Source: Lentibacillus jeotgali (lineage in GTDB: Bacteria; Bacillota; Bacilli; Bacillales; Amphibacillaceae). From it: a stretch of 64,000 bases of DNA. The stretch's first letter is position 1, and each line of letters begins with the position of its first letter. Made by a program: the position numbers and the translations under genes. This document shows positions 26,084-60,682 of this stretch, in pieces. The stretch lies in the NCBI RefSeq assembly GCF_000224785.1, contig NZ_AGAV01000015.1, positions 310,001-374,000 on the forward strand, written 5' to 3'. Under the pieces are notes generated by a model, which worked only from the letters and a program-made list of their open reading frames with translations, searched no databases and was not told the DNA's origin.

Positions 26084-26251
26084 GTGTGAGAAATGCCTCA
26101 ACACGTGCAGGAGTGGGGTTAATTCGCGCGACGAACCACGGAATGCGTGCAGCGGACGCCCAAACTTGTGCGGGGATGCCCTTAATTCGTGCGAGAACTG
26201 CCCAAGCTCGTGCAGAAATCGCCTCAACTCATGCGAGGCACCAAAATCTGC
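26084..26251. repeat. 21-bp tandem repeat array A (8 units)
   Basis: Eight adjacent units of about 21 bp begin GTGCGAGAA or variants and end CCAACTC or TTAATTC. Units differ at several positions. The core CTCGTGCGAG is an interrupted palindrome. The unit closely resembles that of array C. It lies in the divergent gap between rarD and methionine gamma-lyase. Long reading frames here exist only because the period is a multiple of three. Confidence 0.75.
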
Positions 26252-26375
26252 GAACCCAACTCCTACAGCACATACCCGCTCAGCACTAAACTGAACAGCC
26301 TTTTCATTATGTAAATAATCTAAGTTTAGAATCTATTTTAGTAAAAAGCAATAGCTGGCGCCCATCGTTTTTAAA

Positions 26376-26389
26376 CGAAAACGCTTTCG
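26376..26389. promoter_or_regulatory. Candidate cre site upstream of methionine gamma-lyase
   Basis: CGAAAACGCTTTCG matches the core of the CcpA consensus TGAAARCGYTTTCA at 12 of 14 positions. Its centre is about 48 bp upstream of the predicted transcription start, a position that would fit activation as well as repression. Confidence 0.45.
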
Positions 26390-26395
26390 AAAATC

Positions 26396-26424
26396 TTGGA
26401 AATGCAATAAGATGATAGTATAAG
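26396..26424 (+). promoter_or_regulatory. Sigma-A promoter of methionine gamma-lyase
   Basis: TTGGAA (26396-26401) and TATAAG (26419-26424) are 17 bp apart, with an extended TG-type context (GATGATAG) before the -10. Transcription would begin near 26431, giving a leader of about 165 nt. Confidence 0.55.
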
Positions 26425-26429
26425 AGTTT

Positions 26430-26585
26430 TCCCTTTAACAGACAGTAAGCTCTCCCACAACAAAGTGGCAGTAGACCATCGCCAATAGGGGTAACCGTCT
26501 GTAAAGGTCTGATTTTGGTCAACGACTATCCGGCGGGAAAAAGCGCCCGCAGCGCTCCGCTGAATGAAAATTTACTTTATACAGG
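26430..26585. repeat. Composite hairpin repeat, copy 2, forming the mgl leader
   Basis: Part one reads TTAACAGACAGTAAG and ends in CGTCTGTAAAGGTCTG. Part two carries CCGGCGGG, AAAAAGCGC and CCGCTGAATGAAAATTTAC. It belongs to the family of the copies near 22.8, 37.4 and 54.0 kb. Because the likely promoter lies directly before it, almost the whole 5' leader of the next gene is this element. Confidence 0.55.
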
Positions 26586-26595
26586 GGGATTATGA

Positions 26596-27780
26596 ATGAC
26601 GAACAATCATAAACGATTCAATACATCGGCTATCCATGACGGCTATGACCCGTCTGATCTACTGGGAAGTCTGACTGCGCCGCTGTTTCAGACATCCACG
26701 TTTACATTCGAGACTGCGGAAGAGGGGGAACGCCGTTTTGCCGGTGAGGAAGATGGTTATATGTATTCAAGACTTGGCAACCCGACCGTCACGGTTCTCG
26801 AGGAGAAAATGGCAGCTCTGGAAAAAGGAGAGCGGGGACTGGCATTTGCCTCCGGGATGGCGGCTGTATCAGCAATTTTGGTTGCGCTAACGAAAGCAAA
26901 TGATCATATCTTATGTTCGGCGGGGTTATACGGGTGTACATTTGGTTTAGTGAGCATGATGAAAGAAAAATACAATATTGATCACGATTTTTCGATGATG
27001 GAGACAAAGGATGAGGTACGGGGATTAATCCGCCCGGAAACGGCCTGCATTTATGTTGAGACACCGATTAACCCGACGATGAAACTGATTGATCTACAAA
27101 TGGTTGCCGAGGTGGCACATGAGTGTGGCATCCCGGTTGTCGTTGATAACACATTTGCGTCACCCTATCTCCAGCGCCCGCTTGAACTAGGATGTGATGT
27201 CGTTATTCACAGTGCAACCAAATACATTGGCGGACATGGTGATGTCATAGCCGGGGTTGCTGTCGGGAAGAAGGATTTCCTTGATCATGTCCAGATGACG
27301 ACACAAAAGGATATGGGCGGTATCATGTCACCGCTTGATGCGTGGCTCCTGATCAGAGGGTTGAAGACCTTGCCAATCCGGGTTGACCGTCATTGTGATA
27401 ATGCAGAAAAGATTTACGCGAAACTAAACAAGCATCCCAAGGTCAGCCGTGTTCTTTACCCGGATGACAGTGATCATCCTGATTATCACATTCGGCAAAA
27501 GCAAATGAAACGAGGTGGCGGCCTTATTTCCTTTGAAGTCAAGGGGACAAAGAAGGATGCCCAGAAAATGCTGAACAATCTCGGTTTTATCAAAATTGCC
27601 GTCAGCCTGGGGGATGCCGAGACTTTAATTCAGCACCCTGCAACAATGACCCATTCAGTCGTACCGGAAGCATCCCGGCAGCAAATGGGGGTAAACGACC
27701 AGCTTATCCGGTTATCGGTCGGCCTTGAAGAATGGGAAGACATCTGGGGAGACCTGGAACAGGCGCTGGATCAGCTATAA
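26596..27780 (+). CDS. megL: Methionine gamma-lyase
   Basis: A 394-residue PLP enzyme that splits L-methionine into methanethiol, 2-oxobutyrate and ammonia. It begins like known methionine lyases (AIHDGYDP) and keeps Tyr57 and Arg59 in YSR, Tyr112, Cys114 in LYGCTF (the cysteine that sets methionine lyases apart from cystathionine lyases), Asp184 and the PLP Lys209 in HSATKYIGGHG, plus KDMGG. AGGGGG lies 7 nt before the ATG. Cystathionine or homocysteine gamma-lyase activity is the alternative. Its stop overlaps the convergent SDR gene by 6 nt. Confidence 0.82.
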   Translation: MTNNHKRFNTSAIHDGYDPSDLLGSLTAPLFQTSTFTFETAEEGERRFAGEEDGYMYSRLGNPTVTVLEEKMAALEKGERGLAFASGMAAVSAILVALTKANDHILCSAGLYGCTFGLVSMMKEKYNIDHDFSMMETKDEVRGLIRPETACIYVETPINPTMKLIDLQMVAEVAHECGIPVVVDNTFASPYLQRPLELGCDVVIHSATKYIGGHGDVIAGVAVGKKDFLDHVQMTTQKDMGGIMSPLDAWLLIRGLKTLPIRVDRHCDNAEKIYAKLNKHPKVSRVLYPDDSDHPDYHIRQKQMKRGGGLISFEVKGTKKDAQKMLNNLGFIKIAVSLGDAETLIQHPATMTHSVVPEASRQQMGVNDQLIRLSVGLEEWEDIWGDLEQALDQL

Positions 27781-28335
27781 TGGCCGCTGATCCCAGGGTT
27801 CAATTGTCCCGACGACCGATTCGTCTTTATCCGATTCAATTGCCTGAATGACGCCATCTGAAATTTCGCCGTGGGTTAGCCATCTTGATTGATTATTTTC
27901 CTGAGTAAATCCAAGGTAAACACGCTTGTACAGACAGAGTTCCGGTACGGGCGTGTTTTCTTTGATCCAAAAACCGGCGCTGCTCTGAATGTGAAATAAG
28001 CGCCATGAATTGTCTGTATGATAATCCTGTATGACGTCCAAAATATCGGATAGCGCATTTGGAGCAGTCGAGTGAATCCAGCTGACAATGATATCTGGGA
28101 GCCCATCAGCCGCCAAGATCCTATTCACCTGTTGTTTCAGCTGTTCACTATCGCGATAATCAACCGATATGCCACAGCTACTTTCGGGATGCTTGCATTC
28201 AAGCTGTACATCTTGCAACTTTTGCCTATCACGGCCGATGATATATACCGAATAACCAATTTCATTAAGCCAGCGGGAAACGCCTCGCAGCATACCAGAG
28301 CCCCCGATGACCAAAGCAATTTTTTTAGCTGTCAC
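27775..28335 (-). CDS. Short-chain dehydrogenase-like protein
   Basis: A 186-residue protein with an N-terminal Rossmann motif (IALVIGGSGMLRGVSRWL) and NAD(P)-binding features such as GRDRQKL. The classical SDR YxxxK is not intact: the equivalent region reads LYKRVYLGF. The protein is shorter than typical SDRs (about 250), so it may be a non-catalytic or atypical member. GTG at 28335 is chosen because AAAGGAGG lies 7 nt upstream, although an ATG nine codons earlier exists. Confidence 0.65.
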   Translation of the reverse strand: MTAKKIALVIGGSGMLRGVSRWLNEIGYSVYIIGRDRQKLQDVQLECKHPESSCGISVDYRDSEQLKQQVNRILAADGLPDIIVSWIHSTAPNALSDILDVIQDYHTDNSWRLFHIQSSAGFWIKENTPVPELCLYKRVYLGFTQENNQSRWLTHGEISDGVIQAIESDKDESVVGTIEPWDQRPL

Positions 28336-28492
28336 GTAAAATCCTCCTTTATGTTCACGCACTTTAATAAAAACTGGTCCGAGTCATCCCGATAATGGTT
28401 TCTCAGGAGCGATTCAATATCAGATTAACGTACTAAGGAAAATTATGCTATGATAAGGTGAAATGGCACGTTTAAAAAGAGAGGTTTTACAC

Positions 28493-29935
28493 GTGGGGAT
28501 ATGGTCAATATTACTGGGAATCATTCTTTTTTTAAATATAGCCCTGGCGTTAGCTATCATTTTTCTGGAGCGGAAAGATGCTTCGGCAACATGGGCGTGG
28601 CTGATGGTGCTGCTGTTTCTACCTATTGCCGGGTTTATTTTGTATTTAATTTTTGGGCGGCGGATCAGCGGACAGCGGATTTTTACCTGGGATACAAAAA
28701 TGAAATTAGGGGTGAAATTTGCTGTACAGGAACAACTGCGTGCGCTGGAAGATGATACTTTCCAATATAAAAATTCAAAACTGGCAGAGTACAAAGGCCT
28801 GTACTATTTACATCTGCGCAATGATGATGCGATATTAACACAGGATAACAGTGTTAACATTTATACAGACGGCAGAGAAAAGTTTGATGCAATGATCCAG
28901 GATATGGAGCAGGCGGGAGACCATATTCATTTGTTGTATTATATCCTACGCCATGACCGGCTGGGTAAACGTGTGGCGGATGTGCTGATCCGAAAAGCCA
29001 AACAAGGAGTCGAAGTACGTGTCCTGTACGATGACATGGGATCAAGAGGCATCAGCAAAAAGTTTATTCGCCGTATGCGGCGGGCGGGAGTTGAAATCGA
29101 ATCATTTTTTCCGTCAACTATTCCGAAAATCAATTTTAAGATCAATTACCGCAATCACCGGAAGCTTTCCATCATTGACGGTAAAATTGGCTATATCGGC
29201 GGTTTTAATATTGGTGATGAATACCTTGGCGACAGTAAAGAATTTGGCTACTGGCGCGACACCCATTTACGTATATGCGGTGATGCAGTTGCCAATATGC
29301 AGACCAGGTTTATTATGGACTGGAATCAAGCATCACGGCACGATATCGTGTATGATGAGCGGTATTACGCTTATGGGAAAAACGGCGATGTCGGTGTGCA
29401 GGTAGTTTCCAGTGGGCCGGATTCCGACTGGGAGCAGATCAAGAATGGCTATATTAAGATGATTATGTCGGCAAAGGAATATGTGTACATTCAGACGCCA
29501 TATTTCATTCCGGATGACAGCCTCCAGGATGCACTGCGTATTGCTGCGTTATCAGGTGTTGATGTGAAAGTCATGATTCCGAATAAGCCGGATCACCCGT
29601 TCGTCTATTGGGCAACCTTATCCTATATCGGCGATTTGCTGAAAGCAGGGGCCGAAGTCTATGTATATCAGAAAGGGTTCCTCCATGCGAAAACGATTAT
29701 TGTCGATGGAAAAATTGCCTCAGTCGGGACAGCGAATATTGATGTGCGAAGTTTCCGCCTGAATTTTGAGGTGAACGCGTTCCTGTATAATCAAGGCTTG
29801 TCAGAAAGGCTTTTGGAGGCGTTTGTTGACGACATCGCCCATTCGACCCAAATGACCCCAAAATTGTACAGGGAGCGGTCAATTGGTGTACGATTTAAAG
29901 AATCAATTTCAAGATTAATTTCTCCGATATTGTAG
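28493..29935 (+). CDS. cls: Cardiolipin synthase
   Basis: A membrane enzyme that joins two phosphatidylglycerols into cardiolipin, about 480 residues. Two N-terminal helices precede two phospholipase D motifs, NHRKLSIIDG (HxKxxxxD) in the first half and HAKTIIVDG in the second, both complete. GTG at 28493 is preferred, since AGAGAGG ends 8 nt before it and the length then matches ClsA. An in-frame ATG at 28463 would add ten residues. Cardiolipin is often raised in salt-adapted Gram-positives. Confidence 0.92.
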   Translation: MGIWSILLGIILFLNIALALAIIFLERKDASATWAWLMVLLFLPIAGFILYLIFGRRISGQRIFTWDTKMKLGVKFAVQEQLRALEDDTFQYKNSKLAEYKGLYYLHLRNDDAILTQDNSVNIYTDGREKFDAMIQDMEQAGDHIHLLYYILRHDRLGKRVADVLIRKAKQGVEVRVLYDDMGSRGISKKFIRRMRRAGVEIESFFPSTIPKINFKINYRNHRKLSIIDGKIGYIGGFNIGDEYLGDSKEFGYWRDTHLRICGDAVANMQTRFIMDWNQASRHDIVYDERYYAYGKNGDVGVQVVSSGPDSDWEQIKNGYIKMIMSAKEYVYIQTPYFIPDDSLQDALRIAALSGVDVKVMIPNKPDHPFVYWATLSYIGDLLKAGAEVYVYQKGFLHAKTIIVDGKIASVGTANIDVRSFRLNFEVNAFLYNQGLSERLLEAFVDDIAHSTQMTPKLYRERSIGVRFKESISRLISPIL

Positions 29936-29985
29936 TGGATAAAATGGGTACAATATCAGTAAACTTATGAAACGGAGGCAATGAT

Positions 29986-30507
29986 ATGGATAAGAAACCT
30001 TGCAGAGATTCGCTTGCTGTTAAGACGTCACATGTGCTGCCACCCGATACCAATAATCATGGAACGTTATTCGGGGGCAAACTGATGGCTCATATTGATG
30101 ATGTTGCTGCGATTGCGGCTGTGAGACACGCGCGAAAACCGGTTGTAACGGCATCAACAGATTCGGTTGATTTTCTGTCGCCGGTCAAAGAAGGGGATTC
30201 CATTTGTGTCGAGGCATATGTCACGTGGGCACACCATACATCTATGGAGGTATTTGTGAAGGCAGTGACTGAAAATTTGCTGACGGGTAGTCGGAAAGTG
30301 TGCACGACAGCTTTTTCAACCTTTGTAGCAATAGGGGACGATGGAAAGCCAGTTTCTGTCCCGCAGGTTTATCCTGTTTCGGCACAGGAGAAACAATTGC
30401 ACGAATCCGCACCTGAACGCGCGACCCAACGAAAAAAACGCCGGGAGCATTCCAAAGAGATGGCCGCAACGTTTGGCACCGATTACCCGTGGAACGAGGT
30501 GGATTAG
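29986..30507 (+). CDS. ykhA: Acyl-CoA thioesterase, YkhA-like hotdog protein
   Basis: A 173-residue cytoplasmic hotdog-fold thioesterase that hydrolyses acyl-CoA. The family block VLPPDTNNHGTLFGGKLMAHID is intact, including the Asn and Asp positions used in catalysis. A second block reads VDFLSPVKEGDSICVEAYV. The C-terminal 25 residues are charged. It lies 50 nt after cls with GGAGG before the ATG and could be co-transcribed. Confidence 0.88.
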   Translation: MDKKPCRDSLAVKTSHVLPPDTNNHGTLFGGKLMAHIDDVAAIAAVRHARKPVVTASTDSVDFLSPVKEGDSICVEAYVTWAHHTSMEVFVKAVTENLLTGSRKVCTTAFSTFVAIGDDGKPVSVPQVYPVSAQEKQLHESAPERATQRKKRREHSKEMAATFGTDYPWNEVD

Positions 30508-30749
30508 GCGGGAAACGTAAATTTCGTTGGGCTTTAAACCTTGTGGTTGATATGAAATGTGACTTAGTGAAAAATTGTAAGCTTAAACACCACTTCGGAA
30601 ATACACTTCGCGCACCTTAGGGCGGCTGGTGAGCCTCCGCGTGCTTTATGCTCGTCGCGTTGTAAGTTATTTCGGTACAGCATACGCTCCTCGCAACTCA
30701 AAGCTGATTCGGTAGAGTCGGCACAAGGTCATGGGGCGCTCTGAATTTC
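30508..30749. other. Non-coding stretch after the thioesterase gene
   Basis: No gene is recognised. It holds an imperfect GC-rich region around 30595-30710 (GCACCTTAGGGCGGCTGGTG and ACGCTCCTCGC) that looks like a degraded repeat. No second copy was found in the window. Confidence 0.35.
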
Positions 30750-30896
30750 GCGCGGGGATTGCATGAAATCGCGCGTGGCTCACCGAATTTCGCGCAAGGG
30801 TGGCATGAAATCGCGCGACACTCTCTGGATTTCGCACGAGAGTGTCACGAAATCGCGCGATACCCTCTGAATTTCGCGCGAGGATTCCTCGTACTC
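30750..30896. repeat. 21-bp tandem repeat array B (7 units)
   Basis: Seven 21-bp units each begin GCGCGA or a close variant and end GAATTTC or GAAATC. Most cores read TCGCGCGA or TCGCGCG, an 8-bp palindrome. The intervening bases vary strongly. It lies between the 3' ends of the thioesterase and HxlR genes. Confidence 0.78.
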
Positions 30897-30965
30897 AATC
30901 GAACTTTTGTGCTTTTCGATTGATTTTCTCCCTTAATTGCTGTTGAATACAGGGGTACTGATAAA

Positions 30966-31091
30966 ATGGCTCCACAGACGAAGCGATTTTATGACCGGGC
31001 ACGCGGGGGTTGTCTTATCGTCTCAGCGGACAGAGTGTTTGCTGATGACATTGAAAACATGGCAAGCTGCTTAAATAAGAATTGTCACTAA
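30966..31091 (+). CDS. Candidate small ORF, 41 residues, unknown
   Basis: The frame begins MAPQTKRFYDRARGGCLIVS and contains three cysteines. AGGGG lies about 11 nt upstream, a weak fit. It ends just before the HxlR terminator hairpin. Nothing is recognised, and it may be a chance frame or a gene remnant. Confidence 0.22.
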   Translation: MAPQTKRFYDRARGGCLIVSADRVFADDIENMASCLNKNCH

Positions 31092-31117
31092 AAAGAGCCC
31101 GTCATACAGGCTCTCAG
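31092..31117 (-). terminator. Terminator-like hairpin after the HxlR gene
   Basis: GAGCC and GGCTC pair around a 9-nt loop. On the minus strand the stem is followed by TTTTTAG, consistent with ending the HxlR transcript. Confidence 0.6.
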
Positions 31118-31118
31118 A

Positions 31119-31448
31119 TCATGCATGTGATGTTTCAGCATTGTCAGCTGATACCCATTCATCTGCCCAATTTTGGATTTCCTGGATGACAGGTTCCAAA
31201 GCCTTTCCTTTTTCGGATAAGCAATACTCAATGCGGACTGGAAATTCAGAGTATATATTGCGTTCAACAATACCTTCCTTTTCAAGCATTTTCAGTCGAT
31301 CAGAGAGCAATCGTCCACTTATAGGCAAATCTGTTTCCATTTCGGAAAAACGTTTTGCGCCTTTCAACAGTTCAAACAGTATCAAGCCAACCCAGCGTTT
31401 ACTGATAATTCCCATTGCACCTTCAAAGCGCGGACATAAATCAGCCAT
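31119..31448 (-). CDS. HxlR/DUF24 regulator, YodB-like redox sensor
   Basis: A 109-residue winged-helix repressor. The N-terminus MADLCPRFEGAMGIISKRWV carries Cys5 in the CPxxE context of YodB and CatR, where the equivalent cysteine senses quinones and disulfide stress. The recognition region reads ISGRLLSDRLKMLEKEGIV. The C-terminal cysteines that pair with the N-terminal one in YodB are absent. The only other cysteine is near residue 76. A TTAC-N5-GTAA palindrome lies 36 nt upstream of its start. The target may be itself or a gene elsewhere. Confidence 0.82.
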   Translation of the reverse strand: MADLCPRFEGAMGIISKRWVGLILFELLKGAKRFSEMETDLPISGRLLSDRLKMLEKEGIVERNIYSEFPVRIEYCLSEKGKALEPVIQEIQNWADEWVSADNAETSHA

Positions 31449-31483
31449 GACCTTTCACCTCTCTCTGATTAATGATAATATGA

Positions 31484-31496
31484 TTACGAAAAGTAA
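31484..31496. promoter_or_regulatory. Candidate operator of the HxlR regulator
   Basis: TTACGAAAAGTAA consists of perfect arms TTAC/GTAA around 5 bp. It lies just upstream of the regulator gene, where autoregulation is common in this family. Only one copy is visible here. Confidence 0.4.
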
Positions 31497-31610
31497 CCTA
31501 ATTCGATTATAACACAATGAGCCTCTCGGGTAAATTCAATTTTCAGTCCTACTGATCTTATTCAAGATATTTGGTCATTTATAGCATTTGTGAAATAATA
31601 ACATCATAAA

Positions 31611-31827
31611 GTGCGTGTTCAAAAAGGAGGATAAAAAGGATCGAGAAGTTCGAGGCGGCGTAGTTTCGAGAAGCGGAATGTATGCATTTAAATACATGAG
31701 CACAAGGAAAGCTGCCCTGAATCCGCTTCGCACGCAGGAAAAGTGGTTTTCCTTTCCAAGGAGCGGAGAAACAAGCCAACGCCGAAATTCGATGTGTCAT
31801 TTTTACCGGACTTTTTGAACAACCTCA
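31611..31827. mobile_element. MITE-like element, long copy
   Basis: GTTCAAAAAG (31617-31626) and CTTTTTGAAC (31811-31820) form perfect 10-bp terminal inverted repeats. Internally GAAGCGGA pairs with TCCGCTTC, and CAAGCCAACGCCGAAATTCG starts a block of about 40 bp shared with the short copy near 53.3 kb. No transposase is encoded. It lies just upstream of the aminopeptidase gene and may supply its leader. Confidence 0.6.
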
Positions 31828-31855
31828 TAAAACAACATTTTGGAGGTTTTTTGTA

Positions 31856-33100
31856 ATGGCAGATCAAAAAACAAAGGAAAAATATGCGGAACTGGCGCTG
31901 CGTACAGGTGTCAATCTGCAAAAAAATCAGGCACTGATGATCAATGCGCCAATAGAGGGAGCGGATTTCACCCGGATCGTGGCACGAAAGGCGTATGAAC
32001 TGGGAGCCAAGGATGTACATATCAATTGGGCGGATGATGAGCTGACCTTGCTGAAATATGAGAATGCACCTGATGAGGTCATTGAAGATTTTCCAGAATG
32101 GCGGGTTAAACTGTATGAATCGTATGCTGAAGACGGGGCAGCCGTGCTTTCGATTCGCTCAACCAACCCCGATTTGTTAAAAGATATTGATTCCTCACGG
32201 GTTGCGATGGCGAATAAGGCGTCGGCACAGGCCATGAAGAACTTTCGCCAATACACGATGAACGACAGGATTACATGGTCAATTATCTCAATCCCGACTG
32301 GTGACTGGGCACAAAAAGTTTTTCCGGATAAATCACGTGAGAACGCGGTGGCTAGTTTATGGGATGCTATCGTTAAAATTGTCCGTGTTGATCAGGCTGA
32401 CCCAATTGCAGCGTGGGATGCCCATAATGAAACACTGAAAACGGCACGTGAAATCTTGAATCGTAAAAAGTATACGAAGCTGATTTATAAAGCACCCGGA
32501 ACGGATCTCGAAATCGGGCTTCCACAAGGCCACATCTGGAAAGGCGGTTCAGCGGTTTCCGAACAGGGAACGACGTTTAATCCGAATATGCCGACCGAAG
32601 AGGTTTTTTCGCTGCCGCATAAGTATCATGTGAACGGCACAGTAGCAAGCACAAAGCCACTCAACTATGGCGGCAGTCTGATCGATAACTTCAGCCTGAC
32701 GTTCAAGGATGGCAAAGTGGTCGACTATAAAGCTGAGCAGGGTGAAGAGACACTTAAGCATCTGCTGGAAACAGACGAGGGTGCAAGCCGTCTTGGTGAG
32801 GTGGCACTTGTACCGCATGAATCACCTGTCTCCCAGTCAGGGCTGATTTTTTACAATACCCTGTTCGATGAAAATGCATCATGCCACATCGCATTGGGAA
32901 AAGCCTATCCAACCAATTTGGAAGGCGGTGCGGCAATGGACGATCAGGAGCTTGATAAGCACGGTGTGAATGACAGCCTGACACACGTCGATTTCATGAT
33001 TGGCTCTGAAAATCTGGATATTGATGGCGTTCTGGAAGACGGCACGACAGAAGCGGTGTTTCGGAATGGCACATGGGCGCTGAACGTGAAAGGAGACTAA
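31856..33100 (+). CDS. ampS: M29 family metalloaminopeptidase
   Basis: A 414-residue cytoplasmic aminopeptidase of family M29 (AmpS/PepS/AmpII type) that removes N-terminal residues from peptides, a fitting partner for the peptide importers. Characteristic blocks are NQALMINAPIEGADFTRIV near the start, GTDLEIGLPQGHIWKGG, and GEVALVPHESPVSQSGLIFYNTLFDENASCHIALGKAYP, which supplies the metal-binding Glu and His. GGAGG precedes the ATG. The length is normal. Confidence 0.92.
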   Translation: MADQKTKEKYAELALRTGVNLQKNQALMINAPIEGADFTRIVARKAYELGAKDVHINWADDELTLLKYENAPDEVIEDFPEWRVKLYESYAEDGAAVLSIRSTNPDLLKDIDSSRVAMANKASAQAMKNFRQYTMNDRITWSIISIPTGDWAQKVFPDKSRENAVASLWDAIVKIVRVDQADPIAAWDAHNETLKTAREILNRKKYTKLIYKAPGTDLEIGLPQGHIWKGGSAVSEQGTTFNPNMPTEEVFSLPHKYHVNGTVASTKPLNYGGSLIDNFSLTFKDGKVVDYKAEQGEETLKHLLETDEGASRLGEVALVPHESPVSQSGLIFYNTLFDENASCHIALGKAYPTNLEGGAAMDDQELDKHGVNDSLTHVDFMIGSENLDIDGVLEDGTTEAVFRNGTWALNVKGD

Positions 33101-33143
33101 TTGGATGAGCCGTAATCGCATAGCTAGTGAGTGACACAAACTT

Positions 33144-33332
33144 GTGCGAGGGCAGCGGAAACTGGTGCAGGAATGGCACAAACTTGTGCGAGAACAGCGA
33201 AAACTCGTGCAGGAATGGCACAAACTTGTGCGAGAACAGCGAAAACTCGTGCAGGAATGACACAAACTCGTGCGAGAACAGCCCAAACTTGTGCGAGAAC
33301 AGCACCGATACGTGCGAGCAACACACGAAAAC
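33144..33332. repeat. 21-bp tandem repeat array C (9 units)
   Basis: Nine 21-bp units alternate between GTGCGAGAACAGC- and GTGCAGGAATGGC-type, giving a 42-bp higher-order period in the middle. Arms CTCG/CGAG form an interrupted palindrome. It is close in sequence to array A and lies between the convergent ampS and recQ genes. Confidence 0.8.
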
Positions 33333-33390
33333 ACCCGGCGATTGGGGCCCAGATCGCGTGATGCATCCTAATACTAGTCTGCATCCTTAA

Positions 33391-33434
33391 CTAAAAAGGT
33401 GTCAGGTTCTAACAATAAATCTGACACCTTTTTT
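33391..33434. terminator. Bidirectional terminator between ampS and recQ
   Basis: AAAAGGTGTCAG pairs perfectly with CTGACACCTTTT across a loop of about 15 nt, with T runs on both sides. Confidence 0.85.
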
Positions 33435-33448
33435 CCCTCTTATACGTT

Positions 33449-46646: not shown

Positions 46647-46676
46647 AAGCCGCTCCAAGTAGAGCGGCTTTTTTGG
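46647..46676 (+). terminator. Terminator of tcyP
   Basis: AAAGCCGCTC-CAAGTA-GAGCGGCTTT is a perfect 10-bp stem followed by TTT, merging into the next inverted repeat. Confidence 0.9.
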
Positions 46677-46712
46677 TATTTTGCGCCGAGCTCCAAGGCG
46701 CAAAATACCAAA
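46672..46712. repeat. 16-bp perfect inverted repeat before array D
   Basis: TTTGGTATTTTGCGCC (46672-46687) and its exact reverse complement (46697-46712) flank a 9-nt loop. It overlaps the T tract of the tcyP terminator and touches the first unit of the 21-bp array. It could act as a second terminator for either direction. Confidence 0.85.
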
Positions 46713-46714
46713 TT

Positions 46715-46882
46715 GCGCGAGGACGCCACCAAATTGCGCGAGGACGCCACCAAATTGCGCGAGGACGCCACCAAATTGCGCGAGGACGCCACCAAATTGC
46801 GCGAGGACGCCACCAAATCGCGCGAGGAAGCCACCAAATCGCGCGAGGAAGCCACCAAATCGCGCGACAGCGCACCTTTCGC
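46715..46882. repeat. 21-bp tandem repeat array D (8 units)
   Basis: Eight units of the form GCGCGAGGACGCC-ACCAAAT[T/C]. The first four are identical, the fifth differs in its last base, the sixth and seventh read GGAAGCC, and the last is degenerate. It is the most uniform array of the window, so probably the youngest. It lies between the convergent tcyP and ligD genes. The 127-codon plus-strand frame through it (heptads KLREDAT) also crosses the tcyP terminator and is not called as a gene. Confidence 0.88.
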
Positions 46883-51734: not shown

Positions 51735-51776
51735 AAAGACGCCCCGTCCATCAATGAGATGACGGGGCGTCTTACT
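51735..51776. terminator. Strong bidirectional terminator
   Basis: AAGACGCCCCGTC and GACGGGGCGTCTT form a perfect 13-bp stem around a loop of about 12 nt between two convergent genes. T tracts are short on both sides. Confidence 0.8.
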
Positions 51777-51827
51777 GACAAAGGTACATATGGCATTTGT
51801 GGGGAATATCAAGGTTCTGTCAATAAG

Positions 51828-53177: not shown

Positions 53178-53271
53178 GATTTTCCCCCTCTCAAACCTCT
53201 TTTTCTTCATTATATCGGAAGTGATGGCGACTGACTACATGAAATTGGAATTGTATTATTTTTAATTAGTA

Positions 53272-53347
53272 GTGCGTGTTCAAAAGAGAGGATAACAAGC
53301 CAACGTCGAAATTCGATGTGTCATAGTTACCGGACTTTTTGAACACC
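53272..53347. mobile_element. MITE-like element, short copy
   Basis: The termini GTGCGTGTTCAAAAG and CTTTTTGAACA match those of the long copy at 31.6 kb. The interior shares about 40 bp beginning CAAGCCAACG and ending TACCGGAC with only a few differences, but lacks about 140 bp of the long copy. No gene is visible in the rest of the gap up to 53586. Confidence 0.6.
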
Positions 53348-53586
53348 CTTTAGTATTCATATTTGAATCAGCAGTTGAATATATTTAACAGAGCATGTCC
53401 GATTGCAGGACAAAAGGATTCGTTTAACTCAACAGAGAGAAGGGAAATGTAAAAATGAATATCAGCGGTTTGCAAAACTCAAACCGTATATGGGATCATT
53501 AAAATAAAGCTTGCGTTTGCGTGTGTTTTTGGTTATGTTGATTAAAACGTCAGTGATATCAAATAAAAAGAAAAGGAGTGCTGACC

Positions 53587-53901
53587 ATGAGTGATTTTCT
53601 GAAAAAAGGCTTTCTCCTGGGTCTTGGTGCAGCCGTTACCGGAAAAGAAAAATTGGATAAACGATTGAATGAAATGGTTGAAAAAAACGAACTAACACAG
53701 GAGCAGGCAAGGACGGTCATGCGTAATTTTATGGATAAAGGCGAAATGAAAACAGATGAGTGGAATACCAAACAATATGAACAAACGCAGAAAATGGCCA
53801 AAGATCTCGGCATTGCAACGAAAGAAGATATAAATGAACTGCGTGCTCGGATTTCTGACTTGGAAAGCCAGTTGGAGGAGCAAAAGCAGCCGGAACAGTA
53901 A
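53587..53901 (+). CDS. Phasin-like coiled-coil protein
   Basis: A 104-residue protein with an amphipathic start (MSDFLKKGFLLGLGAAVTGKEKLDKRL) and two long charged helices that end in a coiled coil (ELRARISDLESQLEEQ). This is the layout of small proteins labelled polyhydroxyalkanoate synthesis regulator phasin. No PHA genes are nearby. ATG at 53587 has AAGGAG about 10 nt upstream. The function remains uncertain. Confidence 0.65.
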   Translation: MSDFLKKGFLLGLGAAVTGKEKLDKRLNEMVEKNELTQEQARTVMRNFMDKGEMKTDEWNTKQYEQTQKMAKDLGIATKEDINELRARISDLESQLEEQKQPEQ

Positions 53902-54014
53902 ATTGTTGAAGTTTGTCGGTTATCTGTATATTTTGTAAATTTTAACTTTTAGTATTGATTCCCTGGCGGATTAGCAGTACAATAAGGTTAACATAAAAGC
54001 AGTGTACGCTATTC

Positions 54015-54135
54015 CGCCTTAACGGGAAGTAAGACTCCGCTTCAATCGTTCATGAAAACACGGAAAGATACGTGGGGATAACAGCCCGTAAAGGTCCGGT
54101 TCGTTCAACTAACATTCAGTGGGAAAAGAATTGAG
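54015..54135. repeat. Composite hairpin repeat, copy near 54 kb
   Basis: TTAACGGGAAGTAAG, then TCCGCTTCAATCG, GGGGATAACAGCCCG, TAAAGGTCCGGTTCG and TTCAACTAACATTCAGTGGG. GGG...CCC and related arms allow nested pairing in part one. Part two stops after the left arm of its hairpin. It ends next to the ribosome binding site of the following small gene. Confidence 0.6.
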
Positions 54136-54150
54136 GGGGCTCTCAGCGTT

Positions 54151-54291
54151 ATGGAAAGCTTTTTGCAGGTAAGAGAAAGTACAGAAGAGCAGCTGGGCAG
54201 GAAACTTTATGAACGTGAGCTTGTCTTTCTGCAATGGGTTTATGAACGCTATACTGAAGAAAACGAACAGCAGGTAAACATTAGTCTTTAA
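54151..54291 (+). CDS. Small soluble protein, 46 residues, unknown
   Basis: The frame begins MESFLQVRESTEEQLGRKLY and continues ERELVFLQWVYERYTEE. It is amphipathic, charged and probably helical. GAGGGGG lies about 11 nt before the ATG, somewhat far. Its clean start just after a repeat, protein-like composition and place before ywdI support a real gene. No family is recognised. Confidence 0.5.
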   Translation: MESFLQVRESTEEQLGRKLYERELVFLQWVYERYTEENEQQVNISL

Positions 54292-54448
54292 TAATATAGG
54301 AAGTGAAAAAGTCTTGGAACCGGCCAAGGCTTTTTGTATGGCCAAAAATGAGTTCGTGTTATACTGACTGATGTGAGTTATGAAAAAACTGCGTGCTGAT
54401 TTTTATCATAGGAGCGTCTATCTGCTAAATCCACAAAAAGGAGAGGTC

Positions 54449-54736
54449 ATGATGGCAGTTGCGACAGACACGATACTTAGAAAAATACAGCGGGAACTGA
54501 CGGAAGCCCAGAAAATGGCTACTGATGAAACGGCAGTGAAAAAACATGCTGCAAATATCCAGCTTCTTTGTGAGTTATTAACGGATGAACAGTCTGTCCT
54601 GGAATCTGAACCCAATGTGACAGACCGTGAGTTGAAAGCGATGATGGGAAGTGAAGCGGTTAAGCGTCAGCCGGACCCCGCACACGATTCGATTGATCAT
54701 GACGGTGCTAACGGAAAGTCTCTTTTTGATTTTTAA
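54449..54736 (+). CDS. ywdI: DUF5327 protein YwdI
   Basis: A 95-residue helical, charged soluble protein (TDTILRKIQRELTEAQKMATDETAVKKHAANIQLLCELL) that matches the small DUF5327 family found next to DUF423 genes in Bacillus. AAAAAGGAGAGG directly precedes tandem ATGs at 54449 and 54452, and either may be used. The function is unknown. Confidence 0.75.
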   Translation: MMAVATDTILRKIQRELTEAQKMATDETAVKKHAANIQLLCELLTDEQSVLESEPNVTDRELKAMMGSEAVKRQPDPAHDSIDHDGANGKSLFDF

Positions 54737-54761
54737 CAGCCGAGAGAAGAGGTGGATATAA

Positions 54762-55130
54762 ATGAAATTGTTTTTAGTTCTGGGAGCGATTAATGGGTTT
54801 TTAGCCGTTGCTCTGGGTGCATTCGGGTCACATGGGCTTGAAGGAAAGCTATCTGAAAAGGCCTTGGGTACATGGGATAAGGCTGTCAATTATCAAATGT
54901 TTCACACGATGGCTTTATTGGTGACCGGTTTACTGCTTGCTAGACTGCAAAGCGGCGGGATGACCTGGGCCGGCTGGTTGTTCTTTATCGGCATTGTCCT
55001 GTTTTCCGGCAGTCTATATATCTATTCAGTCAGTGGCATCAAAACGTTTGCCATGATAACACCATTCGGCGGAGTAGCCTTTTTAATCGGCTGGATTTTG
55101 CTAGGGTATGCTGTGATAAAGTATTTGTGA
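54762..55130 (+). CDS. ywdK: DUF423 membrane protein YwdK
   Basis: A 122-residue protein with four membrane helices and the DUF423 signature NGFLAVALGAFGSHGLEGKLS near the start, followed by NYQMFHTMALL and GSLYIYSVSG. The family is widespread but of unknown function. It lies 25 nt after ywdI, so probably the same transcript, as in B. subtilis. Confidence 0.88.
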   Translation: MKLFLVLGAINGFLAVALGAFGSHGLEGKLSEKALGTWDKAVNYQMFHTMALLVTGLLLARLQSGGMTWAGWLFFIGIVLFSGSLYIYSVSGIKTFAMITPFGGVAFLIGWILLGYAVIKYL

Positions 55131-55169
55131 ATGTGGATTTGAAATTGCATTTTACACCTGCAGTGGGGA

Positions 55170-55421
55170 CTATAGTGAGAAAAATAGGATTGTAGCCAAA
55201 AGCATCAGCATTCCTGCTTTGGCAACCTGTTTAATGCCTTCGGTAGAGCGGTTGGTGTTAAGAAGAAAAAGTCCTTCAGAAAATATGCTGAAGGCGAGCA
55301 GATATACACACAACAGCATAATGATCACATACCCCTGCACGATGGCAATCAGCCCGATTACGACCGCGAGTGCCAAGGACAGCAGTTCTATGCGTATGTA
55401 TTTTTCATATGGATTGTGCAT
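55170..55421 (-). CDS. Small membrane protein, unknown
   Basis: An 83-residue protein with three hydrophobic segments (about 10-30, 32-52 and 66-83) and the start MHNPYEKYIRIELLSLALAV. ATG at 55421 has AAAGGGGC upstream. It is not part of the B. subtilis arrangement as I remember it. It could be a local acquisition or a lineage-specific gene. It lies downstream of gerQ on the same strand. Confidence 0.6.
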   Translation of the reverse strand: MHNPYEKYIRIELLSLALAVVIGLIAIVQGYVIIMLLCVYLLAFSIFSEGLFLLNTNRSTEGIKQVAKAGMLMLLATILFFSL

Positions 55422-55454
55422 AACAATTGCCCCTTTTGTGTGTGAAAACATCCA

Positions 55455-55488
55455 AGCGCCCGATGAAGCCGGGCGCTTTCTTTTATTA
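55455..55488. terminator. Hairpin downstream of gerQ
   Basis: AGCGCCCG and CGGGCGCT pair around about 7 nt. A T-rich tract (TTTCTTTT) follows on the plus strand. The minus-strand tract is weak, so termination of gerQ may be partial. Confidence 0.55.
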
Positions 55489-55511
55489 GGTTTTGAGCGA
55501 AGACATATCGG

Positions 55512-55979
55512 TTATCTTGGCGGGGTTTGCGATATTTGCCCGTCATTACCATACGGGTACTGATAATTCAGTTCCTCTTCAAACGTGACATAATCCAGAT
55601 AGACCATTAAGAGCAGATATCTTCTGCCAGTTTGCGGGTCCCGTAAGATAATATGATCTCTCCCGGCTGCCTCAACAATTCCCCGGAAAACTTGCGCATT
55701 CCATTCCTCATTGTTTTCAAACGTCATATAGACCGTGGCGCGTTTACCTTCATTCAGCCGCAGAATGTTTTCAATGTAAGATTGTTCCATCGGCAGCATA
55801 CCCTGAGCATTTTGAGCCTGTTGCTGCATTTGTTGTTGCTGATTTTGCGGCGGCGTCGTCTGTCTTGAATCGTAAATAGGATAGTACGCTGGAGATGACT
55901 GCGGATAATAGTAGTAGGGATATGGCTGATACGGATAGTAGCTGGCGTACGGATAGTTTGTGTTGTCTTTCTCACTCAT
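55512..55979 (-). CDS. gerQ: Spore coat protein GerQ
   Basis: A 155-residue inner-coat protein needed for localising the cortex hydrolase CwlJ and cross-linked by transglutaminase. The N-terminal half is low-complexity (Tyr/Pro repeats, then Gln-rich). The C-terminal half is the conserved GerQ domain (YIENILRLNEGKRATVYMTFENNEEWNAQVFRG...). AGGAGG precedes the ATG. Its presence shows that the organism makes endospores. A mother-cell promoter is expected, but I could not pick one out. Confidence 0.92.
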   Translation of the reverse strand: MSEKDNTNYPYASYYPYQPYPYYYYPQSSPAYYPIYDSRQTTPPQNQQQQMQQQAQNAQGMLPMEQSYIENILRLNEGKRATVYMTFENNEEWNAQVFRGIVEAAGRDHIILRDPQTGRRYLLLMVYLDYVTFEEELNYQYPYGNDGQISQTPPR

Positions 55980-56164
55980 GAAAAAAACCTCCTATATAGA
56001 ATTAATATACTTTTGTACATTACGAAAATACTTCATTTTTTCAAGTTCATGATGTTATGGTCTACTGGATATATATATGAAAAGAGAATGAAATTGATGA
56101 CAGGTGCGGAGAAAAAAGTGTGGGTTTGTTTTTTTAGGGAAGGGAGACAACTGTCTGTATACTA

Positions 56165-56200
56165 AAAATCAGCGGGAAATAGCGCCCCGCTGAATGAAGT
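56165..56200. repeat. Solo composite-family hairpin near hemQ
   Basis: CAGCGGG-AAATAGCGC-CCCGCTG, then AATGAAGTTT. This is the second half of the composite element alone. It sits directly after the hemQ stop codon and could form the 3' end of its message. Confidence 0.55.
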
Positions 56201-56204
56201 TTCT

Positions 56205-56945
56205 TTAAACTTTTAAGTACGCATCAATATCTTCTTTAGCCAGATGGTTGCCGACGAAAAACGCGCCAAATTCGCCGTAGAGAGCGCTCACTTCGTCAAA
56301 GCGCATTTCGTAGACGATTTTTTTGAGTTGAATCACGTCGTGGGCGAACAGCGTGACACCCCATTCCCAGTCATCGAAACCGAATGATCCGGTAATGATC
56401 TGCTTGACTTCGCCGGCATATTGACGGCCAGTTTTCGAATGTTCATAAAGTAGTCTCGCCCGTTCTTTGAAATTAAGTGAATACCAGTTTTCTTCTCCCT
56501 GACGGCGTTTGTCCATTGGGTAAAACGAGACATGCTCCCATTTCGGCAGAATCGGATAGAGCCGTTCACGTGTCTTCGGATCATCTGCCGAGCTGTTGCC
56601 GCTGTACTGCGAAAGTTCCACAACGGAGACATATGAGTAGGCCGGGCGCAAAAACTCGGCAAATTTGGATTTATTGAATTCTGTTTCGATATCAGTCAAT
56701 TCGTTCATCGTCGGACGTAAAAACATAAACATCAAGTCAGCTTTCTGTCCCACAATTTTATAAAGTACATGACTGCCGTTTTCGGCTTCTTCCACTGCTT
56801 CCCATGTCGTTAGCAGATTTTTGAATTCGTCAATTGCCGCCGTCCGTTCTTCATCCGACACTGCTTTCCAGGACGTCCAATCAATGGTACGCATGTCGTG
56901 GAGACAATACCAACCGTCCAATGTTTTTACTGCTTCAGCTGCCAT
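56205..56945 (-). CDS. hemQ: Coproheme decarboxylase HemQ
   Basis: A 246-residue enzyme of the chlorite-dismutase fold that makes the last step of the Gram-positive (coproporphyrin) heme pathway, converting coproheme to heme b. The catalytic tyrosine and lysine lie in FYPMDKRR (about Tyr142 and Lys146), and the axial-type His is in [12 protein letters not shown] (about His169). The N-terminus [10 protein letters not shown] is typical. The gene is divergent from pta, as in B. subtilis. Confidence 0.92.
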
Positions 56946-57226
56946 AACTAATCTCTCCTTTATTGAAGTAGGGTCATATTCATATTGGGTGAAATTGTTT
57001 ATTGAAATCGGCCTTTAACCGATTTCTCTCATGCTGAGCCCGGCGTTGGTTGGGTAGATCGTTATCCGGGTGATATTGTTTCACGTTTTAACTATATCAC
57101 ATTTAGGGTACGATAAGCATGAATCAGGGTGTTTGTCATGTTTCTGTCAAAAAGGCATAACACCCAAATGTTTGTGTTTTCAGGATTAAATAATTCACGT
57201 ATCATAGAGGGCAGGAGGTGCTCCCG
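56946..57226. other. hemQ/pta divergent intergenic region
   Basis: No gene is seen. A perfect 8-bp stem GAAATCGG/CCGATTTC with a 7-nt loop lies at 57004-57026. Promoters for both genes must lie here, but none has two good boxes. Confidence 0.5.
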
Positions 57227-58195
57227 ATGAGTAATCTTTTTGAGGAAATAAAAGATCAGCTGGCAAATGCTGATAAAAAAATTGTTTTTCCCGAGGGGCG
57301 CGATGAACGGATTCTGACAGCTGCCAGTCAGCTGGGTGCATCCGGCATTGTGACACCAATACTGCTTGGTGACAAAGGAGAAATAAAACAACAAGCGGAA
57401 TCGGCAGGCGTTAATGTGTCAGCATGTGAACTGATCGACCCGCATGACTTCCCGGAATTTGATGAGATGATTGATGTGTTTGTCAAGCGCCGGAAAGGGA
57501 AAGTCACAGCTGATGAAGCCCGCCAGACGCTCCTGGATGAAAATTATTTTGGAACGATGCTTGTCTACATGGACAAGGCGGACGGGCTTGTCAGCGGTGC
57601 GGCTCATTCGACAGCTGATACCGTACGCCCCGCATTGCAGATCATTAAGACGAAAGAAGGGGTTAAGAAAACATCCGGCGTCTTTATCATGGTCCGCAAC
57701 GATGAAAAATATGTGTTTGCCGATTGTGCTATCAACGTGAATCCTGACAGTCAGGACTTGGCTGAGATTGCTGCTGAAAGTGCCAATACGGCTAAACTGT
57801 TCCGTGTTGACCCGCGGATTGCGATGCTTAGTTTTTCCACGAAGGGCTCTGCCCAATCTGAAGAGACCGAGAAAGTGGTAAATGCGTTAGAGCTGGCGAA
57901 AGAGAAAAACGCATCACTTGTGATCGACGGTGAATTCCAGTTTGATGCAGCCTTCGTGCCGAGTGTCGCGGCCAAAAAGGCACCGAACGCCGTAATCAAA
58001 GGTGATGCCAGTGTCTTTATTTTCCCGAGTCTTGAAGCGGGAAACATCGGTTACAAGATCGCCCAGCGGTTAGGTGAGTTTGAAGCAGTCGGCCCGATTT
58101 TGCAGGGTCTGAATAAACCGGTCAATGACCTGTCACGCGGATGCAGTTCCGAGGATGTCTATAATCTCGCGCTGATTACAGCGGCACAGGCGTAA
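57227..58195 (+). CDS. pta: Phosphate acetyltransferase
   Basis: A 322-residue enzyme that converts acetyl-CoA and phosphate to acetyl phosphate in overflow metabolism. The single-domain form is typical of Bacillus. Family blocks include IVFPEGRDERIL near residue 20, DGLVSGAAHSTADTVRPALQIIKT and DPRIAMLSFSTKGS. ATG at 57227 has AGGAGGTG upstream. A terminator follows. Confidence 0.94.
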   Translation: MSNLFEEIKDQLANADKKIVFPEGRDERILTAASQLGASGIVTPILLGDKGEIKQQAESAGVNVSACELIDPHDFPEFDEMIDVFVKRRKGKVTADEARQTLLDENYFGTMLVYMDKADGLVSGAAHSTADTVRPALQIIKTKEGVKKTSGVFIMVRNDEKYVFADCAINVNPDSQDLAEIAAESANTAKLFRVDPRIAMLSFSTKGSAQSEETEKVVNALELAKEKNASLVIDGEFQFDAAFVPSVAAKKAPNAVIKGDASVFIFPSLEAGNIGYKIAQRLGEFEAVGPILQGLNKPVNDLSRGCSSEDVYNLALITAAQA

Positions 58196-58199
58196 TACG

Positions 58200-58232
58200 A
58201 GCGTACAGCATAAGGCTGTGCGCTTTTTTGAT
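58200..58232 (+). terminator. Terminator of pta
   Basis: GCGTACAGC and GCTGTGCGC pair (one G-U) around ATAAG, followed by TTTTTT. Confidence 0.85.
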
Positions 58233-58419
58233 GGGTGCTTAATTTGCGTGCCGGAATTCTTACGTCGATAAACCACCAGATTGCCTGTATGACAAGATAT
58301 AATCATATCCTCCTTTTAGGCAATGTTTAAATTAAATGAATTTTGAATTGTTAGATTAGAGCTAATCATGTAAAATAAAGCCATTAAACTTTTCTACACG
58401 TTTTGAAAGGGGTGCGGCA

Positions 58420-59682
58420 ATGGAGCCGAGTCAGTCAGGTAACACGCATGTAGAATCACCGAAGAAAAGGAAGATATCATATGTCGGTCCCGGTCTGGTT
58501 GTAGCCGTGGCCGGGGTCGGCGCAGGGGACTTGGTGGCAGCCCTTGTGGCTGGTGCTGACTTTGGCCTGATGTTAATTTGGGCTGTTATTTTAGGTGCGT
58601 TTCTAAAATACATCTTAAATGAAGGCGTTGGGCGCTGGTACTTGGCAACCGGGCAAACCATCTTACAAGGATGGCGGTCCTTGGGAAGCTGGGTTTCAGG
58701 CTATTATGTGGTCTATGTTGTCCTATTTGGGCTTATTTATGGCGCTGCCGTGACGTCCGCATGCGCTCTGTTTATCTCTGCGTTATTCCCGGTTCTGCCT
58801 GTTTGGGGATGGGCCCTCATCCATGCACTGATTGGGCTTGCTGTAGGATGGTTCGGGGGCTATCAAAAATTTGAACGCATTATGCAATTTTTTGTTATTG
58901 TCATGTTTATTACCGTCGTTGGTTCTGCGCTATTTGTCTTGCCCAACATCGGCGAATTAGCGAACGGTTTAGTGCCCCGGATGCCGGATGGATCTTTTTT
59001 ACAGACGCTGGGTTTGATTAGCGGTGTCGGCGGGGCTGCTTCCATTCCTTATTACTGCTATTGGATACGCGAGAAAAATTGGCAGGGCGGTTCGTGGATT
59101 TCCGTTATGCGCCTTGATTCAGCCGTTGCTTATATTATAACCGGTATTTTCTGTTTTGCGCTTATGATTGTGGCTTACCAGTTTTTGTATGGAGCAGGCA
59201 TATCGATTTCGGGGAATGAAGGTCTTGTCACAATGGCCGAGATTTACGGTGAAAGGTTTGGAGCCGTCGCAACTTGGCTGCTGTTGATCGGTTTTTGGGC
59301 AGCTGCATTTACATCCTTGTTGTCTGCTTGGAACGGACTTCCGTATATATTTGCGGATTTTGTTCAATTGTTAAAGAACAAAGATAAAAATTCAAATCGT
59401 GATATTTCTGAAAAGGATCCTGCTTATCGCGCATACTTGCTTTGGCTGACATTTCCATCCATGCTGTTTCTGTTTATAGATGACCCGGTGTTGCTTGTTT
59501 TGATCGGATTGGCATTCAGCGCAACCATCCTTCCTTTTCTTGCAATAACGCTGATGCTGTTATTAAACTCAAAAAATGTGGAAAAGGTTTATAGGAATGG
59601 TGTGGCCAATAATCTGATTTTAGGCGGAATTATTGTTATCTTTGTAGTGATGGCAGGTATCGAATTATACAACTCTTTTTAA
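58420..59682 (+). CDS. Nramp-like transporter lacking the canonical metal motifs
   Basis: A 420-residue protein with about eleven membrane helices and the Nramp/LeuT-type fold. In canonical Nramp proteins helix 1 carries Asp-Pro-Gly-Asn and helix 6 Met-Pro-His. Here helix 1 reads GVGAGDLVA (about 32-40) and the helix 6 region reads GGAASIPYYCYW (about 204-215). The metal-ligating Asp/Asn/Met set is thus changed, so the substrate may differ from Mn2+/Fe2+. The gene begins with GGGGTGCGGCA before the ATG and has 39 nt before the next gene. Confidence 0.75.
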   Translation: MEPSQSGNTHVESPKKRKISYVGPGLVVAVAGVGAGDLVAALVAGADFGLMLIWAVILGAFLKYILNEGVGRWYLATGQTILQGWRSLGSWVSGYYVVYVVLFGLIYGAAVTSACALFISALFPVLPVWGWALIHALIGLAVGWFGGYQKFERIMQFFVIVMFITVVGSALFVLPNIGELANGLVPRMPDGSFLQTLGLISGVGGAASIPYYCYWIREKNWQGGSWISVMRLDSAVAYIITGIFCFALMIVAYQFLYGAGISISGNEGLVTMAEIYGERFGAVATWLLLIGFWAAAFTSLLSAWNGLPYIFADFVQLLKNKDKNSNRDISEKDPAYRAYLLWLTFPSMLFLFIDDPVLLVLIGLAFSATILPFLAITLMLLLNSKNVEKVYRNGVANNLILGGIIVIFVVMAGIELYNSF

Positions 59683-59721
59683 GTATTAGATGGTCACAGT
59701 CATGATAAGGAGATGAGTTGA

Positions 59722-60513
59722 ATGGGTATATTTGCAAATGATGCTTTAAAAGGGGAGCATGTCCTGGTCACTGGCGCAACGGGTGGCATTGGCTCTGAAA
59801 CAGCAAAGGTACTGGCAGAGATGGGCGCATCTATCACACTGACGGGACGGCGCGGGAATATATTAGAAGATTTGGCTGCTGAAATTCATGAAGCCACGCC
59901 TGATGCTAACGTATTCACCCATACGGCGGACATCGCAAATGAAGAAGAGCGCAATGAGCTGGTGAAAAGTGCTGAGAAGGCGTATGGACCGATCACATTA
60001 CTGGTCAATAATGCCGGGATTTCCGGCGGCGGCCCTGTTGGGCAACTCGAACAGGAGGACATGGAACGGGTCATGCATCTGAATTACACATCAGCCGTTC
60101 TGCTGACACAATTGATTTATGAATCAATGAAAAAGCAGCAGCGAGGCGCAATTGTCAATGTCACGTCATTATCCGGCCTGCGCGGAACATATGGCGGAAC
60201 GGCTTATGCGGGATCAAAATTTGCTATGACCGCATTTACGCATTCGATGGCGCTTGAAGCGATCGAACATGGTGTGCGTGTCAACGCGGTCAGCCCCGGA
60301 TTTGTCGATACGGATATGGGGAGGTCATCCGCTCAGAAAAAAGCAGACCGAAAAGGCGTTTCACTTCAAGAAGTTATTGAGGATTCGATTCCATCGGGAC
60401 GCATGACTAACCCACGGGAAGTGGCCAATACAATCGCCTTTCTATTAACCGACGCTGCAGAAAACATTGTGGGTGAGTCTGTGAAACTGTCAGGCGGCAG
60501 TGTGTTGCGCTGA
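59722..60513 (+). CDS. SDR family oxidoreductase, FabG/YqjQ-like
   Basis: A 263-residue classical short-chain dehydrogenase. The cofactor motif TGATGGIG is near residues 17-24, NNAGISGGG follows, the catalytic serine lies in NVTSLSG, and the YAGSK motif supplies Tyr and Lys. The ending DAAENIVGESVKLSGGSVL is typical. It might reduce a 3-oxoacyl or other ketone. Nothing points to a definite substrate. AAGGAGATG precedes the ATG, and it may share a transcript with the Nramp-like gene. Confidence 0.8.
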   Translation: MGIFANDALKGEHVLVTGATGGIGSETAKVLAEMGASITLTGRRGNILEDLAAEIHEATPDANVFTHTADIANEEERNELVKSAEKAYGPITLLVNNAGISGGGPVGQLEQEDMERVMHLNYTSAVLLTQLIYESMKKQQRGAIVNVTSLSGLRGTYGGTAYAGSKFAMTAFTHSMALEAIEHGVRVNAVSPGFVDTDMGRSSAQKKADRKGVSLQEVIEDSIPSGRMTNPREVANTIAFLLTDAAENIVGESVKLSGGSVLR

Positions 60514-60535
60514 GATGGAAGTTACAAAACATGGG

Positions 60536-60682
60536 CGGGAGTCATCATAACATGGACGCGAAAACGAAAACTTGATCCCTAGAAAACAATCTTCGTCCCG
60601 AGAATGAAAATTTCTGCCCGTGGGGAGGGGACTTCTGCTCGAAAATCAAAACTTCAGCGCGAGAAATTAAAATTCCGCCAAA
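60536..60682. repeat. 21-bp tandem repeat array E (7 degenerate units)
   Basis: Seven successive 21-bp units share a loose pattern CGNGAGAAN-AAAACTTCTGCC. Identity between neighbours is low, so this looks like the oldest array. It lies between the convergent SDR and lipL genes. Confidence 0.6.

Follow-up and report, generated by a model that had tools for sequence, protein, structure and literature searches.

Iterons and ParR-type centromeres are direct repeats of ~20-22 bp that align bound protein molecules on the same side of the double helix, and on plasmids they are confined to a single locus next to the rep or par genes. On chromosomes, RacA/ram, SpoIIIE/SRS, FtsK/KOPS and Chi are words with an origin-proximal or replication-strand bias, and they occur as dispersed single sites and are not known to form 21-bp arrays. 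CRISPR loci combine near-identical repeats of tens of bp with unique spacers of similar length. The closest known kind to the arrays described here is the STAR element of Staphylococcus. STAR elements are GC-rich intergenic direct repeats with a conserved short core and locus-specific spacers; the core is 14 bp, T(G/A/T)TGTTG(G/T)GGCCC(C/A), cores lie at least 40 bp apart, and different staphylococcal species have them at different loci (PMC3532100).

In this study, we analyzed five arrays (A to E) in a window of 64,000 nucleotides (G000:C17:310001-374000) from a genome of 3.78 Mb in 31 contigs. The most frequent unit combines a polar core of 13 bp, AACTYGTGCRRGA, with a variable linker of 8 bp. 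Like STAR elements, which have no known function, the arrays are GC-rich and intergenic, vary in copy number through expansion and contraction and have locus-specific spacers (PMC3532100). The harvested consensus does not match the STAR core given there, and core-to-core starts are 21 bp apart, rather than at least 40 bp between cores, in 238 of the 249 cases where successive hits lay 20-23 bp apart. Conserved-core intergenic repeats with variable spacers are thus already known; the 20/21-bp spacing, the polarity that follows replication, the gaps common to species and the dense zone are not features of STAR as described (PMC3532100). Since the arrays are close in kind to STAR, the statement of the initial annotation that no named family exists holds only for this particular repeat. 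A literature search, with subscription literature mostly outside its scope, returned no description that we recognized as these arrays. Unlike iterons and ParR centromeres, they form tens of chromosomal arrays with variable linkers, and no rep or par gene lies beside the window arrays, whose nine flanking genes encode transporters and metabolic or repair enzymes. From ram, SRS, KOPS and Chi they differ in arrangement. The core and linker lengths, and linkers that recur within young arrays, differ from the CRISPR pattern, in agreement with the earlier remark that nothing CRISPR-like is present.

Array A (26084-26251, + strand) consists of degenerate 21-bp units with the type I core and lies between divergent genes for an EamA transporter (-) and a Cys/Met PLP enzyme (+). 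Array B (30743-30883, no strand assigned) is located 3' of a thioesterase-family gene and has alternating units with the type II core TCGCGCGA and a period of 42 (2 x 21) bp. Array C (33135-33332, +) has 9 type I units with periods of 21 and 42 bp between the convergent M29 aminopeptidase (+) and RecQ-domain helicase (-) genes. Array D (46710-46867, +) has 8 near-identical units of the type I variant AAATTGCGCGAGGACGCCACC between convergent sodium:dicarboxylate symporter and LigD-domain genes, and is abutted by an inverted repeat with 13-bp arms (46675-46709, no strand assigned). Array E (60536-60682, +) is a degenerate 20-bp array with cores such as AACTTCAGCGCGAGA, and its convergent neighbours encode a short-chain dehydrogenase and a protein with a lipoyl ligase domain. 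A + strand gene precedes four of the five arrays. An Rfam scan of the window returned only a SAM riboswitch above the gathering score (24948-25065, - strand), and the arrays had no match.

A period of 21 bp had been proposed for all five arrays. Among lags of 15-30, the best was 21 in A (0.46 identity), B (0.54), C (0.66) and D (0.91), and TRF reported 21 and/or 42 bp for these four. The proposal failed for array E, where the best lag was 20 (0.46 vs 0.38 at lag 21) and TRF gave 20 bp for part of the array; the array itself is real. In each array, the observed periodicity was reached at any lag of 15-30 by none of 1000 dinucleotide shuffles. Across the whole window at lags 8-60, identity above 0.55 over a 126-bp stretch was found at 21 and 42 only. 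A profile trained on contig C15 alone chained 6 units in A, 9 in C and 6 in D, all on the + strand and none on the - strand. D is therefore a GCGC variant grouped with A and C. These results uphold the initial pairing of A with C and separate D from B, the 42-bp TCGCGCGA array. Two further arrays on the same contig (C17:261000-261138 and 278651-278756) have a 21-bp period and a different word, CTAAAGTTCACA, and the first of them is flanked by two terminator-like hairpins as judged by eye.

The arrays belong to a much larger set in this Lentibacillus-like genome, and arrays sought beyond the window were found both in the same genome and in relatives. The nearest named records to the M29 peptidase of the window are from Lentibacillus salicampi (91%) and L. 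sp. CBA3610 (90%), with L. persicus, Virgibacillus subterraneus and V. litoralis at 89%. Contig C15 (86 kb) holds 272 chained type I units on the + strand and 0 on the - strand, and the window's contig C17 (379 kb) holds 30 and 0. The unchained profile hits on C17 fell on both strands (43 on + and 31 on -), so the word belongs chiefly to arrays. A sequence-only model built from 73 two-unit pieces (R1) matched 10 of the 12 genus genomes at E 0.001, this genome included; of the two without a match, one (G001) holds arrays of the variant AACTCGCGCGAC. In a sample of 298 further genomes from across the phylum, R1 gave 0 matches at 1e-5 under filters that miss weak matches, and a single phylum-wide family was rejected on this basis. 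With array C as a DNA query, 11 of 40 genomes matched, namely the same number of genus genomes (10 of 12) and G021 from another genus of the family. The G021 array (locus L057, core AACTCGAGCGAC) has units in both directions, and at L057:1400-1800 the direction switches more than once.

The initial annotation described a short palindromic core in most units. We found instead that the unit is polar and that its orientation tracks the direction of replication. Loci of 9 kb or longer contain 75 arrays of type I, defined by a central TGC or AGC, with orthologous and split arrays counted more than once. Of these, 73 lie on the G-rich strand, which has positive GC skew and is the leading strand; the remaining two are opposite. 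Outside these loci, further opposite-strand R1 hits occur at G000 C13:49712 and its C14 duplicate, C29:341360 and G011:3201598. In the G000 stretches examined, 29/29 arrays are on the + strand, which is the leading strand, and one of them (C16:90564) was flagged inside a called ORF. The segments C13:78877-83646 and C14:295553-300322 are one array-bearing segment on two contigs, probably through assembly redundancy, so that 27 of the 29 arrays are independent. The flanking genes of the 29 are arranged +- in 11, ++ in 11, -+ in 4 and -- in 2, with one half known. Array orientation thus nearly always follows replication, independent of flanking gene direction. Exclusively convergent placement was rejected: convergent-gene gaps are only enriched (11/29 arrays vs 59/353 gaps over 60 bp).

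We take a pair of sites near C17:87-91 kb that match the parS consensus to be an origin marker; a third site with one mismatch lies at 139 kb. GC skew flips at the pair. The two agree on an origin near C17:87-91 kb, which puts the window ~0.22-0.29 Mb away. Units are concentrated in a ~90-kb zone that carries ~40 times more units per kb than contig C17, and in the two genomes mapped the zone is 0.5-0.65 Mb from the origin. Orthologues of C15 proteins (at least 60% identity) are found in array-bearing stretches of G011 (3.21-3.23 and 3.28 Mb), G007 (near 2.55 Mb), G006 (C30, C19 and C50) and G008 (C47, C71 and C20). The parS sites of G011 and G007 map to 2.72 and 3.20 Mb, which places the zone ~0.5-0.56 and 0.65 Mb away, respectively. 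By coordinates, the gap after the malate synthase gene has an array in G000, G006, G008 and G011, and G000 and G006 have in common arrays left of a LysR-type gene and at C15:76128-76528, 78344-78594 and 82697-82978. A dense zone in another genus was not supported: arrays were absent from the G017 stretch that corresponds to the zone, and 400 kb in 20 stretches yielded 3 arrays of 20/21 bp, with one more in the L205 stretch. Placement near the terminus was also rejected: in G011, single 20/21-bp arrays were present in 4 of 20 stretches, which lie between +0.5 and +1.1 Mb from parS, and the other 16 had none. R1 hits on the other arm of G011 are at 1.46, 2.19 and 2.22 Mb.

The gaps of the window arrays were compared in the related species. 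At the array A gap, no array was detected in G006, G008, G004 or G001. The array C gap had 29 harvested units in G006 and 6 in G007, and no array in G004 or G001. At the array D gap, at least one core was present in all six species compared, with 1 in G007, 2 each in G004 and G008, 8 in G001 and at least 27 in G006. The array E gap has clearer 20-bp arrays with a different core, ACATGGGCGCGAAA, in G006 and G007. With 1 to at least 27 units at one gap and no array at some gaps in some species, no single array is essential.

We then compared the two parts of the unit. On the C15 lattice of 275 units, core columns averaged 1.25 bits of information and linker columns 0.34, values in which the choice of units by the profile favours the core at array edges (5 of the 276 in-array units were below the profile score and one lay at the contig end). 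The core mean exceeded the linker mean in all nine species harvested, from 1.22 vs 0.34 in G000 to 1.86 vs 1.48 in G010, where G010 is represented by one homogeneous array and G004, G002 and G001 by 10-18 units. Agreement between units two apart was 0.78 per core column and 0.51 per linker column, and between units from different arrays 0.72 and 0.34. The linkers of adjacent units agreed at 0.33, like linkers of other arrays. Because linkers are alike two units apart and not in adjacent units, the arrays grow in two-unit (42-bp) steps, and the dissimilarity of adjacent linkers was no longer read as a sign of saturation. Judged by its higher agreement between units two apart, the core has diverged less than the linker since the units were duplicated. 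At the fifth core position, T is found in 24/43 arrays of G000 and 4/20 of G006, and in 0/18, 0/8 and 0/6 of G008, G007 and G011, which hints that the word is drifting genome-wide. The core persists, and linkers and unit number turn over.

A polar core that outlasts its linker, a ruler of two helical turns, replication orientation and concentration in one zone together fit a directional protein that loads side by side. We therefore favor, with a probability of roughly 0.42, the reading that the arrays are helically phased polar 13-bp sites for a sequence-specific DNA-binding protein with a chromosome-level role. With cores two turns apart, the bound molecules would all sit on the same side of the helix, and the protein could read direction along the chromosome. 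The claim that all cores share one face suits the 21-bp arrays (two turns of 10.5 bp), but cores in 20-bp arrays would drift around the helix. Orientation and the single zone suggest a role at the level of the chromosome rather than of neighbouring genes; such a protein might organize or anchor the nucleoid or mark the direction away from the origin. If a protein binds, the arrays would mark a replication-polar chromosome domain throughout the genus and make it directly accessible to study. A more specific version, which we regard as rather unlikely, is a polar centromere-like zone ~0.5 Mb from the origin with hundreds of phased putative protein sites, in which the word would drift per species while two-turn spacing is kept and other genera of the family would use other words. 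If true, it would be a chromosome-organizing system not described before.

The period was also surveyed across the family and a few members of its order. In the TRF set (2.57 Mb; noncoding arrays of at least 2.4 copies and at least 60 bp, with long-open-frame arrays dropped), 61 of 63 arrays had periods of 20/21 bp, multiples of it, or 51/52 bp, two arrays being counted twice (L083 = L169 and L156 = L176). The periods were 20/21 in 33 arrays, 40-42 in 13, 51/52 in 12, 61 in 2, and 105, 28 and 131 in one each; the 61-bp arrays overlie 20-bp arrays of G007. Of 14 further stretches, 10 came from other families, and these contained a 20-bp array in G031, a 52-bp array in G028 and a single array of 131 bp; noncoding 20/21-bp arrays were absent from nine additional stretches of four same-order genomes. 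Evidence for arrays beyond the family is therefore thin. A limit of the period to 20/21 bp throughout the class was also rejected, as G061 from another family has noncoding arrays with periods of ~18, 37/38, 42, 51 and 60 bp. Among 80 M29 loci, 7 of 20 TRF arrays begin 34-115 bp past the matched end of the M29 gene, a recurrence confined to a few hundred of ~13,000 bp per locus. These seven have different words, come from different genera and have periods of 20 or 52 bp (21 by lag for L156).

This recurrence 3' of one gene, with differing words and periods, supports the view that the arrays are neutral or selfish minisatellites, a strong rival to the protein-site reading that is quite possibly correct. 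Seed units at gene ends would be multiplied by slippage during replication, in some cases next to a hairpin; orientation would be set by the lagging-template strand, and the core, although functionless, would be kept for amplification needs. The widely varying unit number at one orthologous gap, the homogeneity of young arrays including their linkers (array D; G006), the 42-bp growth steps with linkers that have not fully decayed and the hairpins that abut arrays at D and on C29 all agree with it. However, the core is better preserved than the linker between duplicated units and is common to many loci and species, and slippage alone would not predict a dense zone with common sites. If nothing binds, these are unusually clean bacterial minisatellites, with a period locked to the helix while the sequence changes.

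The hairpin also raises the possibility that a mobile element of the single-strand kind, REP or IS200/IS605-like, left the arrays as remnants or uses them as targets, in which case a hairpin and core inserted into the lagging-strand template would give the orientation bias. The recurring hairpin, TTTTGCRCC...GGYGCAAAA, was observed beside a core or array at window 46675-46709, G000:C29:246961 and G001 joined-stretch coordinate 77883. On C29 it abuts the array at 246983, as in D, and hairpin-like sequence is present at the D position in relatives. We consider this explanation improbable. It accounts for the replication orientation and for the G001 site, where the hairpin has one nearby core without an array, but a scan of the G000 stretches located the pattern at just 2 places, and linkers differ between units, unlike a copied element.

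The two weakest explanations concern the transcript and the shape of the DNA. It is very unlikely that the arrays are transcribed as an RNA, serve in termination or encode a repeat peptide: the + strand gene upstream of four of the five window arrays and the inverted-repeat arms in the core would suit this, but orientation is independent of gene direction, no Rfam family at gathering score overlaps the arrays, adjacent cores show no covariation or compensatory pairing (Watson-Crick at 4/9: adjacent 0.46, self 0.44, next-but-one 0.44), and stops in 290 units are close to those of one column-shuffle in all six frames (11/15, 60/68 and 64/64 forward; 44/37, 89/77 and 18/22 reverse). DNA curvature or bendability that serves HU-like proteins or gyrase, with the helix and not the core setting the period, would explain why 20/21 and 51/52 bp recur across genera with different sequences, but it is equally hard to sustain, as a wedge model gave no excess curvature in 68 arrays (6.15 vs 6.10 column-permuted, mean rank 0.48) and the core bases are too strictly kept for bendability alone.

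Whether or not a protein binds, the 20/21 and 51/52-bp spacing across genera calls for a testable explanation. The arrays of 51/52 bp, or ~5 helical turns, form a second noncoding class, and some of their units have internal inverted repeats. They were observed at L122:7339-7561, L124:7326-7713, L140:12203-12673, L145:7330-7557, L199:8617-8935 and L209:9191-9595. In L122, L124 and L145, the array follows the M29 gene and so occupies the gap that in other genera contains arrays of 20/21 bp.
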